From NCBI RefSeq assembly GCF_964019385.1, contig NC_088649.1, positions 12,696,438 to 12,760,437 on the forward strand: a stretch of 64,000 nt of DNA, in the 5' to 3' direction. The notes beneath the pieces were generated by a model that searched no databases, had not been told where the DNA came from, and worked only from the letters and a program-made list of their open reading frames with translations. The stretch is from Sycon ciliatum (lineage: Eukaryota; Porifera; Calcarea; Leucosolenida; Sycettidae). This document shows positions 1 through 62,100 of this stretch, piece after piece. A program made the translations under genes and the position numbers. Within the stretch, counting starts at the first letter, position 1; every line of letters starts with the position of its first letter.

Positions 1-3000
1 AGTGGCTTGCTGTTCCTCCATGAGCTGTTGCTTATCAGAAACCTGGCGAACAATGGCGTCCTGCTCATCGCGTGAACGTCCAACGATCGCCTGGAGCTCT
101 CGCACCTTCTGCAGCAAGCCATCACGTTCCTCTTCGATCGTACGCAACTCAGTGCGTAGTGTGTTGACCACTCCAGACGATGTGCTGCTCTGTGACATGA
201 GAGAGACGAGAGAGAGAGAGAGAGAGAGAGAGAGAGAGAGAGAGAGAGAGAGAGAGAGAGAGAGAGAGAGAGAGAGAGAGAGAGAGAGAGAGAGAGAGAG
301 AGAGAGAGAGAGTGAGAGAGAGAGAATGAGAGAGAGAGAGAGAGAGAGAGAGAGAGAGAGAGAGAGAGAGAGAGAGAGAGAGAGAGAGAGAGAGAGAGAG
401 AGAGAGAGAGAGAGAGAGAATGAGAGAGAGAGACGAGAGAGAGAGAGAGAGAGAGAGAGAGAGAGAGAGAATGAGAGAGAGAATGAGAGAGAGAATGAGA
501 GAGAGAGAATTCAGTCCCACAACATTCGCTGCACAATCTAATGCTCATGATGCTAAGGCCATGCAGTTTCACAGCAACCTTTCAATGGACAGCACTGTCT
601 AAGTACACATACAGTGCAATCTTGGCTCATGTTCATGTAAAAACACAGGGAGCCTCCATCTCGGAACCATCTCACTCTCACACACAACCGCAAAAATAGA
701 ACCACCATTATCATGATTCCATACATTACAAAGCTCCCCCGTGTGTGCACATACAAAATATATCAGACCAGCTCGGACATGTGACCAACTAGCTGGGTGG
801 CAAAGGCGGTGGGATATCTGAGGCTCCCAGGCACACACTCAGCACAGTGTATAAAGTAAAAGACCACTCGTTGATACACACCGGCTTTCTGTACATACTG
901 GTGCAGGCACTAAACACAGGTCACACAGTACAGCACCGTCAGCAGCCTCGTGGCCTAGACCGTTCTTATTTTCACGTACTGCAGCCTATGCACAGATGAG
1001 TGAAGGTATATACATTGGTATGCTGTGCATGGTGAAATTCTAGGCTGTTCGCTCTTCAGCACTCGGTTCTTCGGCGCCCGACAGTACTGTAAAGAAAGTA
1101 TTGTCAGAAAGGACAGTGAGAAGACCATACCTGGCCTTGCATGGACAGAAGCTGTGCTTTCAGTGACGCACACTGGGCAGTGCTACGCTGTATGTCCTCT
1201 TCCAAAAACTTGATGCGCTCCCGTGTGCGCTCACTTAGACGTCGCATCTCCTCCGCCACGGCCTGAGCCTGCTTCTGTTCCGAGACGGCGTTGTTGGTTG
1301 CAGCCGACGAGGCCTTCACCTGGTCCTCAAGGCTGGCCACCATTGCACGGAGACTGCCTATGCGTGCTGTTAGGCTGTCGCGCTCTTCCCGCAGCGCCTG
1401 CAGCTCTCGCGGAGACGATCCTTGTGCCTTGCCGCCCGGCTCTGCTCGCGGAGACGAGTAGTGCTGGGCTGCGGTAGCATCAAGTGTGCTGGCGGGCACA
1501 TGCGCCTTTGTCGATGGTGAGTCGGTGCGCTGATGTGCCGCCGCATGGTCATCGACATCAGCTGAGTGCCTGCGCAATTCATCTATTTGCTGACATGCCT
1601 ACGGATCAAGAAACAGCAAAATCACAAAGATACATAGATATAACATAGTTCACATACAGTGCGTTCAAAAGTATAGACCATCCCTTCAAAAACTCATTCG
1701 GCTTCTTCCATACCACATAAAACCTGTAGTCACTGGTGCAATGAATTTTTCGAAATTGGCCAGAAAATGGCTGATGGAATATATATTATATACCTTTGAA
1801 CCCCCAACACAAACTTCAAAGAGACATACGAGTACTGTATGTTGCCCAAAGTGCGCCATTCGTGCTGTACTGAATAAAAAACCTGCCGATACTGAGGACA
1901 TGGAATAAGGAATCAACCTCCGAGAGAAAATACATCCACAATTGACCGCCACTATTCAGCCTGGTCGACACCACACAGCTATGAAGTGGCTTTTCCTGGC
2001 CTGTGAATCCCAACTTTGGGTTTTTTTTATTTCATTTTTCATTTTTTTCGCACACACGCACACACATATCTCTCTAGCAGCATTCGAGACTAACACATAC
2101 CTGTCTGTACAGCAACGAGAGGCTGTCTCTTTCCTCTTTCACCGCCTTCAGGTCACGCTGAATCTCACCCAACTGGCCTTCAAACCTCTGTAGGACTTTC
2201 TGTAACTGTCTATTGTCACGTTCGATAGCAGACAAGTCAGCCACGGTGGAATTCCGCGGCGAACGCTCCCTACCAACGCCCGGATCGCGGGTTGAAGAGT
2301 TCCTGCGCATCAGAAGGTCCAGCTCGTTTCGAAAGTGGTCGCGCTCCTCTTGCAGGTGAGTGCACTGGTGTTGCATGGACTGCAGCTCGTGCTGTAAGTT
2401 CTCGACCTGTGCACGGCGGGCATCGGCCGTGACACTCAGGTCGTCCAGTGCAGCACCGACACGTCGATGCTCGGCGGAGCTTCGCTGAGCGCGGCCCTCC
2501 TCGTGTAACGTTGCCAGCTTGCGCAGCGACTCAAGTTCAACATTAAGGGCATGCTCTGCACACAGCGAGTAAAACAAGAAAATAAGAAAACGACAGGGAG
2601 GGGGGGGGGGAGAGAGAGAGTGTGAGAGAGAGAGAGAGAGAGAGAGAGAGAGAGAGAGAGAGAGAGAGAGAGAGAGAGAGAGAGAGAGAGAGAGAGAGAG
2701 AGAGAGAGCACACGGTAAACCATAAGATAGTATAGCATCACACATGAGTATAAAATATTGCTCAAATGGCAGAGCAAAGTAGAACGAAATGCGAGATACA
2801 TGCCTGTAACTATATATTCCTGTAACTAAATATGGCTGTCCTGTACATGTACAGGGATTTGCACTCCTCGCACAAGTAAACCTGATTACTACCTTCATTG
2901 AAAAGGGCAGGGAATGATACACTTTTCTTACATACAAAGGTGTTTGTCCTCAAGAGGTGACAGCCTAGGAAGGATCTACTGAACAGATTTGCACAATGTA

Positions 3001-59100: not shown

Positions 59101-62100
59101 TCTTGTCACATTCATCAGTGGAAAGTCGTGACTGAAGAGTAACCATGCTGAACAATGATTAAATATACATTCAATGATGTGTTACGAGAACAAAATACAG
59201 TGCCAAAATAGAAAGAGGGAAGGTGAGACAATAGCAGTGAAGTGAGAGCTAAGTGCAACGGTGGGTGAAAAACTAATAATTATAACGCTAAAACTATGTA
59301 GTGAGACAAACAATCATGTTGTGCACCTACGAAAACAATTTTAACGCAACTACATGTTTCTTCTGCTTACAAAGATCAGGCTTATGCAAACGAATACAAA
59401 CAGCCTCAAGTACTTTCAACTGACTAGCATACCGTGCACGACAAAGAACAGAAAAACTAAAATCATCATACACCTGCAGACACTTAGGGTGAGACAACAA
59501 GTGAAGAAAAACGGCAGACTTCTTACGATCACAATCACCATCTGATTCCTCGTCTCACTACATAGTCTCACTACGTCTCACTACATAGTTTTAGCGTTAT
59601 AATTACTAGTTTTTCACCCACCGTTGCACTTAGCTCTCACTTCACTGCTATTGTCTCACCTTCCCTCTTTCTATTTTGGCACTGTATTTTGTTCTCGTAA
59701 CACATCATTGAATGTATATTTAATCATTGTTCAGCATGGTTACTCTTCAGTCACGACTTTCCACTGATGAATGTGACAAGAAAATTAATTCTGGTAAACT
59801 TTCATGACTTCGTTGTAGTGTGGCGATGACTGCAGAATTTGTTCTTTTTATTGCTATTATAAAATTGTTGTCTCCACGTCGATTATTTGCAAAAAAAGAG
59901 TAGTACTTGTATCCGTCTTTAGTATGGAGTCGTGTAGAACTCCTTGATTTTTCAATCCTGTACCTCTACCGACTTCCTATCAGCTTGAACCTGGTAGAGC
60001 CGGTAGAGAAAGGTAGAATCTTCTCTTTTGAGTAGAAAAAAAAGGAACGCATCTACTGAAAGAAGTAGAACTGGTGCAGGGCGCCAACTTGACTCACACG
60101 ATCGGATTCATTGAGCAGCCCTGTATTGTGTGTGTGTGTGTGTGTGTGTGTGTGTGTGTACATGGTGTGTACATGGTGTGTACATGGTGTGTACATGGTG
60201 TGTACATGGTGTGTATGGTGTGTATGGTGTGTGGCGGGTGGGGGTGATGGGTATAGTGACCCATACACTTTCAGGTTGAAGCCGCCATTCCCTACACTCT
60301 TCCAATGGAGGTGTCTTGTATAATCCTGAATTTAACCCTTTACTGTCCGATTAAAATGTATACAAGCTCACGCAACCACAAAATCTGAAACTAGAATTAG
60401 ACGTAACTTTGGTTTGAATTTGACAATTTCCACGATCTTGGGCATCCTGGAAAGGTCTTGACGAGACAAACGCAATGAGCCCACACTCGGCGCCACAGCA
60501 TGCACTGGTCCAACGCTGCAAGCCAGGGAACGCGTAAAAGCGCTGAGCTCTTGCTCGAGATCGATCTCAATCCACCATGTCACCCCTGTTGCTCGTATCG
60601 AGCTCAAATGTTTTCGTAGAGACTCCCGGGAGCCTACTTTTGAATTTGAATCGGTGTAGCCTTGCCAACAGGTGACGTAAACAGGGAAAATCCCAGCCGT
60701 CGACATGCGTGTCGCGCTCTGAACGCACATTTCCCGGGACCAGAATTACGAGTGCGATAACTCAGCAGCCGCTCTTCGTATCGCTTCGGGAATTGTTTGA
60801 GGCGACAGCTGTGACCTTTCTCTTCGACCTACATATTTCGATCTCTCCAAAAGACCTAGATTTGAGCAAGTTACGATAATTTCAAAATGCCTACCCCATC
60901 GATCCCATTGGTTCGATGCTTGTATGTACGGACAGTAAAGGGTTAATAGTCACATTAGGCTACTTCCTACAGCTTCTTGTACATGTTGTTATGCCTTGGT
61001 CAAGTTTTGAGCTGACAGTGACGTTTATATCTTGTCTGCTTAGGTTGATGGCCAGGACGTCCTTGCTGTCAGGGAAGCGACGCGGTTCTCCAAGGAGTAT
61101 GCAATGGACCAGGTGGGCTTCTAGCAATTGTGTTCCTGTTTGCGTGTGTCTGTGTGTGTTTAAGTGTGTGTGTGCGTGTGTGTGTGTGTGTGTGTGTGTG
61201 TGTGTGTGTGTGTGTGTGCGCGTGTGTCTGTGTGTGTGTGTCGATGGGGGGAAAGAACACTGTACAGTCTACCTGACATACGAAACACAAACAGTCTGTT
61301 CAAACTACATGCTCGTAAAGAAATTAAAGTCATTATCAATCAATCACTCACAGGCGAAGCCCAGTTCACGTTCACTTTGTATGGAAATGGATGCATGGAG
61401 GTGAAAGAAGCAGTAGAATGGCGCTCCACTTGATGTCTGACACTCTTGTTGAGTCAGAGCAGTTGCCAGGAAGCCCTTCCATGGCCTGGGCAAAAAAGAA
61501 CAAGCTTCAGAATCGCTCCAAGCGCGGGTGGAGACGAACCTATCACATTTCGTATACTTTTCAATGCGTTTTGACATGCGACCTCTTCACCACATCTCGG
61601 GGTGGTGGCGGGAACGGCGTCCTTGAAAAAGCTCTATAGGAGATCTACAGTGGTTTCGTTATAGCAGATTTGTTCTATAACCAGCATAGAACGTTTGTAT
61701 ACGTAAAACCGCTTGAAATTCCGTCAGCATGCGGCAGAATGACCGTGAGAATATTTCACTTGTTCTGGCCAAATTTAAAAAGCTTTAAGTTGTTATAACT
61801 TCTATTCTAGACACTTTCTTTTGTCACAATGTGACTAGCAGGCAGGCTCTTGCATATGCAGGGTGCCCACTGCCCTGGCTACAAAGGGGTACCCACTACC
61901 CACCCAGCTGCCCGGGCTGACTCCCACGTACACAGGGTCCCCAGCTGCCTGGACAGGCTCCTGCATGCGCCAAGTAGCCAGCTGCCTGACACAGCGCTTC
62001 TGCTCCTGTTCTCTCTTTTTCTCCAACATGACGTGCATGTGGTCTTGTTTCTGTGTCTGCTTTTGTGCTGCTGCTGTTGATGCTGCTGGTGATGCTGGTG

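Follow-up and report, generated by a model that had tools for sequence, protein, structure and literature searches.

Orientation and position of dinucleotide repeats in the introns of six genes in a 64,000-nt window of Sycon ciliatum

The window analysed, a single stretch of 64,000 nucleotides (nt) from Sycon ciliatum (contig NC_088649.1), contains six genes whose introns hold many dinucleotide repeats, and the orientation of these repeats relative to transcription and to the splice sites is the subject of this study. All counts were made within this window. Its gene content points to animal nuclear DNA with six genes. Two genes are certain by homology. The PDHA gene on the plus strand has eight exons (55096-62703) and its joined protein matched PDB chain 1ni4_A (pyruvate dehydrogenase E1 alpha, somatic form) over 295 residues with an E value of 1.2e-135 and the Pfam family E1_dh with 2.1e-108; the RPL23A gene is located on the minus strand (28580-30353). 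A Schlafen-like gene extends on the plus strand from 5353 to about 25.8 kb, with a predicted stop codon at 25800 or 25812 depending on the frame. Joining its exons at 20367, 20822, 21989 and 23866 gave an AlbA_2 domain match with an E value of 2.7e-8, against 9.7e-6 for the open frame around the first exon alone. Because the joined match is better than that of the single frame, three Schlafen-like acceptors are supported. The models of a CEP135-like gene (minus strand), a zinc-finger gene (minus strand) and an exonuclease-like gene (plus strand) are based on long open frames, coding score and splice signals. The labels CEP135, zinc-finger gene and EXD1/exonuclease are presumptive, in part taken from a preliminary description of this DNA: no database match names CEP135, and the exonuclease domain match had an E value of 0.0018, under the cut-off of Pfam. 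Our own gene finder chained neighbouring genes on the whole strand; its output served as leads and was corrected by hand using the reading frame and the Pfam and PDB matches. The Schlafen-like exons 8981-9053 and 19815-19862 and some others are weakly supported, and the region from 10.2 to 16.3 kb may hide exons missing from the model. The Schlafen AlbA_2 gene (5353-25812) and the exonuclease-like gene (32296-36828) share the same strand with about 6.5 kb between them, and RPL23A is placed in this gap on the opposite strand.

Loci were defined as perfect dinucleotide runs of at least 12 nt, merged at 60 nt, unless a shorter length is stated, and coding bounds served as gene bounds. The 39 modelled introns of the six genes held 38 loci, in transcript sense 28 TG, 3 CA, 7 CT and no GA. 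TG/CT thus stood against CA/GA at 35:3 (binomial p 6.7e-8 if the loci are independent). The preliminary description had reported such a transcript-oriented bias, and its tracts were located at the coordinates quoted there. The loci are only partly independent, 22 of the 38 being in the Schlafen-like gene. The ratios per gene were 22:0 (Schlafen-like), 3:0 (CEP135), 1:0 (RPL23A), 0:2 (exonuclease-like), 6:1 (zinc finger) and 3:0 (PDHA). With each intron counted once, the sense orientation had the majority in 19 of 21 tract-bearing introns (19:2, p 2e-4). Omission of the Schlafen-like gene gave 13:3 (p 0.02), and further omission of tracts linked to a short interspersed element (SINE)-like family, i.e. 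within 250 nt of a copy, gave 13:1 (p 0.002). A relabelling of the six gene strands found 4 of 64 assignments as extreme (38-intron model, 32 of 35 loci), which is a weak test; with only six genes and this outcome, the gene-level proof is modest. The strand relabelling, acceptor composition, Markov model and mononucleotide runs refer to the 38-intron model, the final run counts and placement tests to the 39-intron model. These numbers bear on the view that the pattern is a chance or regional effect, caused by one TG-filled gene and related insertions without a true link to transcription. The share of a single gene in the loci and the strand relabelling speak for it, some tracts accompany a repeat element, and runs outside genes lean 28:13 towards the sense of the nearest gene. 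However, the orientation of the tracts flips with the gene strand in all three minus-strand genes, CEP135, RPL23A and the zinc-finger gene, the ratio of 13:1 is obtained without the Schlafen-like gene and the SINE-linked tracts, and masked unique intron sequence has a T excess in six of six genes. We consider a chance or regional effect very unlikely.

The positions of the loci were compared to random placement in the same introns (5000 shuffles); the region 10230-16360 was taken as one 6.1-kb intron, so that any exon overlooked in it would make the expectations higher. An acceptor is no more than 100 nt away from 15 of the 38 loci, where 4.2 were expected and none of the 5000 shuffles reached this number. 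For donors the count at that distance is 11 against an expectation of 4.0 (p 0.0014), a feature absent from the preliminary description. For the 31 better supported introns the corresponding numbers were 10 of 23 loci near acceptors (2.4 expected, 0 of 5000) and 6 of 23 near donors (2.4 expected, p 0.025). Closer in, at up to 50 nt from a donor, were 8 of 38 loci versus 1.9 expected; for the better supported introns this was 3 of 23 (1.2 expected, p 0.11). TG/CT runs of 8 nt or longer occurred in the last 60 nt of 14 of 39 introns, CA/GA runs in the last 60 nt of none.

TG- or CT-rich sequence occurs close to ten modelled Schlafen-like acceptors (8342, 8981, 10109, 16361, 18696, 19815, 20367, 20822, 21989 and 24886); we equated these acceptors with ten exons that had been listed as touched or nearly touched by repeats but without coordinates, and some of them have only short or imperfect repeats. 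On the plus strand, a (CT)n tract at 8138-8337 ends 4 nt upstream of the acceptor of exon 8342-8653, (TG)n at 8902-8978 ends 2 nt upstream of the acceptor of the weakly supported exon 8981-9053, and (TG)n at 10026-10096 ends 12 nt upstream of that of exon 10109-10229. In (CT)n with (TG)n at 16126-16334 the last run ends 26 nt upstream of the acceptor of the exon at 16361, and (TG)n at 19754-19789 lies 25 nt upstream of the short, weak exon 19815-19862. The AlbA_2 exon at 20367 is preceded by an imperfect TG array (20253-20341, pure run 20263-20275), the AlbA_2 exon at 20822 by (TG)n at 20727-20760, 61 nt upstream of the acceptor and behind the SINE-like copy 20563-20703, and the AlbA_2 exon at 21989 by (TG)n(CT)n at 21919-21965, 37 and 23 nt upstream. 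The longest tract, (TG)141 plus (GT)23 at 24389-24772, is situated 113 nt upstream of the modelled acceptor 24886. Contact of repeats with exon 4 of the exonuclease-like gene was likewise recovered: the exon 33641-33955 starts 9 nt past an imperfect TG array (33559-33631, plus strand). The same holds for two CEP135 exons, as two of three modelled acceptors have (CT)n tracts on the minus strand, at 208-508, 18 nt upstream of the acceptor of the exon ending at 189, and at 2624-2708, 68 nt upstream of that of exon 2101-2555. Acceptors of the zinc-finger gene are accompanied on the minus strand by an imperfect TG array at 42152-42252 (11 nt upstream of exon 40401-42140, adjoining the SINE-like copy 42316-42397), by (TG)n(CT)n at 44306-44348 (51 and 23 nt upstream of exon 44203-44282) and by (TG)n at 50353-50370 (20 nt upstream of exon 50231-50332).

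The composition of the 3' splice sites themselves was determined at positions -25 to -4 of 38 acceptors. The 23 acceptors without a nearby tract had T 0.50, G 0.24, C 0.15 and A 0.11, the 15 acceptors with a tract T 0.45, G 0.26, C 0.20 and A 0.10. The ordinary 3' splice site is here U/G-rich and A-poor with G above C, unlike the U/C-rich type, and a UG repeat is a drawn-out version of it. A UG-rich stretch directly ahead of the AG, as in acceptors of the PUF60/CELF kind, marks the 38 acceptors as a set (T 0.45-0.50, G 0.24-0.26, C 0.15-0.20). Repeats literally take the place of a polypyrimidine tract, as had been suggested, at only a few acceptors (8342, 8981 and about 10109); at most others unique, mostly U/G-rich sequence stands between tract and AG. 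In the polypyrimidine tracts surveyed in section 3.6 of PMC10946897, C and T both rise in human and sea urchin, T alone in the other species examined there. AG was the most under-represented dimer in the polypyrimidine tracts of all species of that survey except C. elegans (PMC10946897), hence GA repeats would be disfavoured at such places.

On the donor side, eight TG tracts begin at most 31 nt from modelled donors: 3664-3677 (minus strand, 22 nt downstream of the CEP135-like donor at 3699), 9080-9134 (plus, 26 nt downstream of the weakly supported exon 8981-9053), 17520-17580 (plus, starting about 22 nt downstream of the hand-placed donor of the exon beginning at 16361), 18871-18885 (plus, 6 nt downstream of exon 18696-18864), 19882-19896 (plus, 19 nt downstream of the weak exon 19815-19862), 24007-24035 (plus, 14 nt downstream of the AlbA_2 exon 23866-23992), 44768-44782 (minus, 31 nt downstream of the zinc-finger exon ending at 44814) and 58450-58462 (plus, 31 nt downstream of the PDHA donor at 58418). 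Further downstream of donors are (TG)n at 20530-20547 (plus, 63 nt from the AlbA_2 exon 20367-20466, in front of the SINE-like copy 20563-20703), (CT)n at 29061-29120 in the last RPL23A intron (minus, 71 nt) and (TG)n at 61176-61241 (plus, 63 nt from the PDHA donor at 61112). Distant from modelled splice sites is (TG)44 at 6744-6831 in a Schlafen-like intron that also holds a short (TG)n at 7018-7029 (both plus strand); two (TG)n tracts at 42950-43138 (minus) and one at 60127-60159 (plus) lie deep within a zinc-finger and a PDHA intron, respectively.

The enrichment at both intron ends raises the question of a lineage-specific splicing code, in which UG-binding proteins would define exons from both sides and repeats would be gained to strengthen weak sites. 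Besides the excess of loci at donors and acceptors, TG runs of at least 8 nt near both ends in 8 of the 35 introns of at least 320 nt agree with this idea, against complementary TG/CA ends in one; tract-free acceptors are likewise U/G-rich. For one PUF60-activated exon, a passage of PMC6093180 describes UG repeats on both sides. Nevertheless, the donor signal shrinks in the better supported introns (p 0.025 within 100 nt, p 0.11 within 50 nt), six of the eight two-ended introns belong to one gene, and slippage growth from GT-rich donor sequence would look identical. Such a code is improbable. The same low standing has its bolder form, in which UG repeats at either end of an intron would function as a splicing signal: acceptors of the U/G-rich type would have replaced U/C-rich ones, tracts mostly unpaired by CA would recruit UG-binding proteins or fold as poly(UG) (pUG) quadruplexes to define exons, and microsatellite growth would tune splicing while antisense repeats are purged. 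A pUG fold takes about 12 UG units in the transcript, unpaired with CA repeats. Counted from the sequence alone, 11 sense TG runs and 3 CA runs of at least 23 nt occur in the introns.

The SINE-like family is represented by five copies of up to 95.5 % similarity, at 1940-2017 (minus), 19051-19250 (plus), 20563-20703 (plus), 34457-34653 (minus) and 42316-42397 (minus). No tRNA match and no Rfam match at gathering score was obtained for the family, and the searches of the window yielded no tRNA gene and no Rfam family at gathering score; SINE-like is a label only. In the alignment four of the five copies carry TG-rich tracts behind them in the orientation of the element, three of these also in front, whereas at the copy 1940-2017 the TG sequence is limited to a short stretch ahead of the element. 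The copy 19051-19250 is flanked on both sides by (TG)n (19013-19319, plus strand). The copy 34457-34653 is inserted antisense in the exonuclease-like gene, between the two transcript-sense CA tracts of that gene (34363-34943, minus strand). Two of the three CA exceptions therefore flank an antisense copy; the third is the (CA)n locus 48106-48157 (plus strand), 150 nt downstream of the donor of the zinc-finger exon 48308-48673. Within 250 nt of a copy are five sense TG loci together with the two CA loci, and without them the ratio is 30:1. SINE-like insertions are rejected as the sole cause on this ground. Other repeats were observed as well. A large palindrome at 10954-11811 with internal repeats, 92 % self-complementary over an 864-column match, is probably a foldback element or one resembling a miniature inverted-repeat transposable element. 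A PDHA intron has an inverted repeat (59021-59307 and 59575-59861) with arms of 287 bp and 99.65 % identity, which looks recent. Perfect tandem arrays are present at 10239-10570 (41 bp units), 15551-15732 (26 bp) and 48956-49170 (52 bp), the last being related to 56380-56567.

A split by run length and distance to the acceptor was made for runs of at least 6 nt, with 19 SINE-linked run loci excluded. Within 150 nt of acceptors the TG/CT to CA/GA ratio was 12:0 (6-7 nt), 5:0 (8-11 nt) and 13:0 (at least 12 nt), thus 30 of 30 runs were TG/CT. In the rest of the introns it was 47:27, 9:5 and 15:1, respectively. Hence the orientation close to acceptors is complete at every length, while elsewhere it is mild for short and strong for long runs. 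Repeat- and exon-masked introns, splice-site regions included, had on the transcript strand more T than A in six of six genes (skew 0.07 to 0.29) and more G than C in five of six; the T/A skew of six intergenic stretches was -0.15 to 0.08 on the plus strand. Deep introns, more than 200 nt from both splice sites (pooled n 23,547), retained a T-A skew of 0.064 and a G-C skew of 0.028, with T above A in six of six and G above C in four of six genes. In a third-order Markov model for the masked sequence of deep introns, TG exceeded CA by 2.8:1 for runs of at least 6 nt and by 4.4:1 for at least 8 nt, ratios that are partly circular because the model was trained on the same introns.

From the observed counts, positions, base skews and repeat element we infer a sum of three ordinary causes, to which we assign a probability of about 0.55: a constraint at acceptors, a transcription-associated strand asymmetry and the SINE-like family. 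Within 150 nt of an acceptor, the U/G-rich and A-poor 3' splice site would allow only TG and CT repeats to arise or to be kept, and GA repeats would place many AG dinucleotides ahead of the true AG. Elsewhere in the intron, T outnumbers A on the transcript strand and, less clearly, G outnumbers C; this would provide more TG and CT seeds, and for these two motifs the insertional growth of repeats probably has a bias of its own towards the non-template strand. The SINE-like family with TG tracts in its own orientation would add tracts both ways and account for two of the three exceptions. The acceptor constraint accounts well for the acceptor-proximal part; as the sole cause it is rejected, since non-SINE loci farther than 150 nt from any acceptor still show 15:1. 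The remaining bias, away from acceptors, is best explained, among single causes, by an asymmetry of base composition and of repeat growth that comes with transcription; selection against antisense repeats is a serious competitor. The UG- and CU-rich tracts by splice sites are probably read by ordinary factors of the PUF60/U2AF, CELF, TIA or PTB type.

Several results weigh against this sum of causes. Away from acceptors the ratio of long tracts (15:1) is steeper than that of short ones (47:27; Fisher p 0.018 for 6-7 nt versus at least 12 nt) and also exceeds the 1.15- to 1.4-fold poly-T bias given for human genes in a part of PMC7181645. Only six loci of at least 12 nt are left once those within 150 nt of either splice site and the SINE-linked ones are removed (6:0; 7:2 with the SINE-linked ones retained). 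The Markov model gave CT over GA at only 1.3:1 for runs of at least 6 nt, a lower ratio than the 13:5 counted in deep introns for runs of 6-7 nt. Mononucleotide runs are balanced (introns minus the last 40 nt: 29 T runs and 27 A runs of at least 6 nt), so that a general poly-T bias in introns is unsupported. The donor-side enrichment is outside the reach of all three causes and unexplained. According to the section concerned of PMC2927911, fish introns are partly opposite to mammals in substitution asymmetry; the direction is thus lineage-dependent, and a mutational bias cannot be assumed for this animal. Finally, with the nearest gene as reference, all 41 run loci of at least 6 nt outside genes split into 28 TG/CT and 13 CA/GA (p 0.028), by length 19:10 (6-7 nt), 6:1 (8-11 nt) and 3:2 (at least 12 nt); scored on the plus strand they were 19:22. 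The preliminary description had held that its reading would be refuted if intergenic DNA showed the same bias with respect to the nearest gene, and such a bias exists in part, for the short runs. The set outside genes includes untranslated regions, downstream transcripts and unmodelled first introns, and untranslated regions and unmodelled introns may account for the lean. Milder than within introns, it weakens the link to introns, takes some weight from the three-cause explanation and adds some to a chance or regional effect. The five loci of at least 12 nt beyond the gene bounds (25864, 36895, 39186, 54131 and 54651) are three TG and two CA relative to the nearest gene. Two earlier assignments had to be corrected here: the Schlafen-like tract series had been drawn up to 25890, but the tract at 25864 is past the predicted stop codon, and the CA runs at 54131 and 54651, tentatively regarded as intronic to PDHA, are both upstream of its first homology-supported exon at 55096, so that they are at most putatively intronic. 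As an observation apart, sense G runs of at least 7 nt exceed C runs in the introns of the six genes (12 versus 5).

The steeper ratio of the long tracts is the point at which purifying selection on the pre-mRNA enters, purging long antisense-type repeats so that only UG and CU repeats reach great length in introns. (GA)n would mimic exonic enhancers and provide false AG sites, and (CA)n would recruit hnRNP L-type repressors or pair with nearby (UG)n; GA enhancers and hnRNP L are known for such roles. The difference between long and short runs away from acceptors, the lack of any GA locus of at least 12 nt in the 39 introns and the balance of T and A mononucleotide runs, which makes the effect dinucleotide-specific, would fit. 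But oriented repeat growth predicts the same trend with length, and CA tracts of 70 and 78 nt, plus one spanning 52 nt, persist in introns. Selection of this kind is a possible but tentative explanation, less probable than the three ordinary causes together. In either case repeat orientation in genes should not be assumed neutral, as 35 of 38 loci are far from 1:1. If the pattern were genome-wide, repeats would allow guesses at gene strand and splice sites, and mutational and selective causes could be told apart by comparing short with long runs and T runs with TG runs.

The orientation and the crowding at splice sites are real in this window, and they are of a kind already reported in other animals, not a new system; taken alone, the pattern repeats the bias reported for Daphnia introns and human somatic indels. 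The premise that unbiased microsatellite growth gives equal orientation is contradicted by passages on both (PMC3152781, PMC7181645). In Daphnia pulex introns CT versus AG and GT versus AC differ considerably, and the T-rich motif is favoured on the sense strand (PMC3152781, intron data). The likeness lies in GT over AC and CT over AG on the intron sense strand, here with TG:CA 28:3 and CT:GA 7:0. In contrast, poly-T exceeds poly-A in Daphnia, and T and A runs are balanced here (29:27); a figure legend of PMC3152781 gives intergenic trinucleotide pairs as similar in density, against 28:13 for the runs outside genes in this study. Indels of human tumours favour, after background correction, the non-template strand for TG, TC, CT and GT tracts and the template strand for CA, GA, AG and AC, as an excerpt of PMC7181645 has it. 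The four-way direction is the same as in the window, although the tumour data are somatic, human and limited to tracts of at most five units, whereas here it is the end state that is observed. A transcription-associated T and G excess in introns, treated in parts of PMC10030826 and PMC2927911, is matched by T above A in six and G above C in five of six genes; unlike it, deep introns have G above C in only four of six. The excerpted text of PMC11310860 and PMC11686069 has nothing on the strand of dinucleotide repeats. Fish have AC/GT bridging introns, whose two ends pair through CA and UG repeats (Lin and others 2016, as described in a portion of PMC12636285). They share long intronic UG repeats with the window, but are rejected as a model, since complementary ends were found in 1 of 35 introns and UG at both ends in 8 of 35. 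Splicing without U2AF2 is a further mark of that class. TIA proteins bind at donors, downstream of exons, according to the relevant part of PMC2964331. PUF60 prefers UG-rich motifs, and PUF60-activated exons resemble those of the window, as far as sequence can tell, in a UG-rich stretch ahead of the acceptor and sometimes in UG repeats past the donor (PMC6093180, in the portion on motifs).

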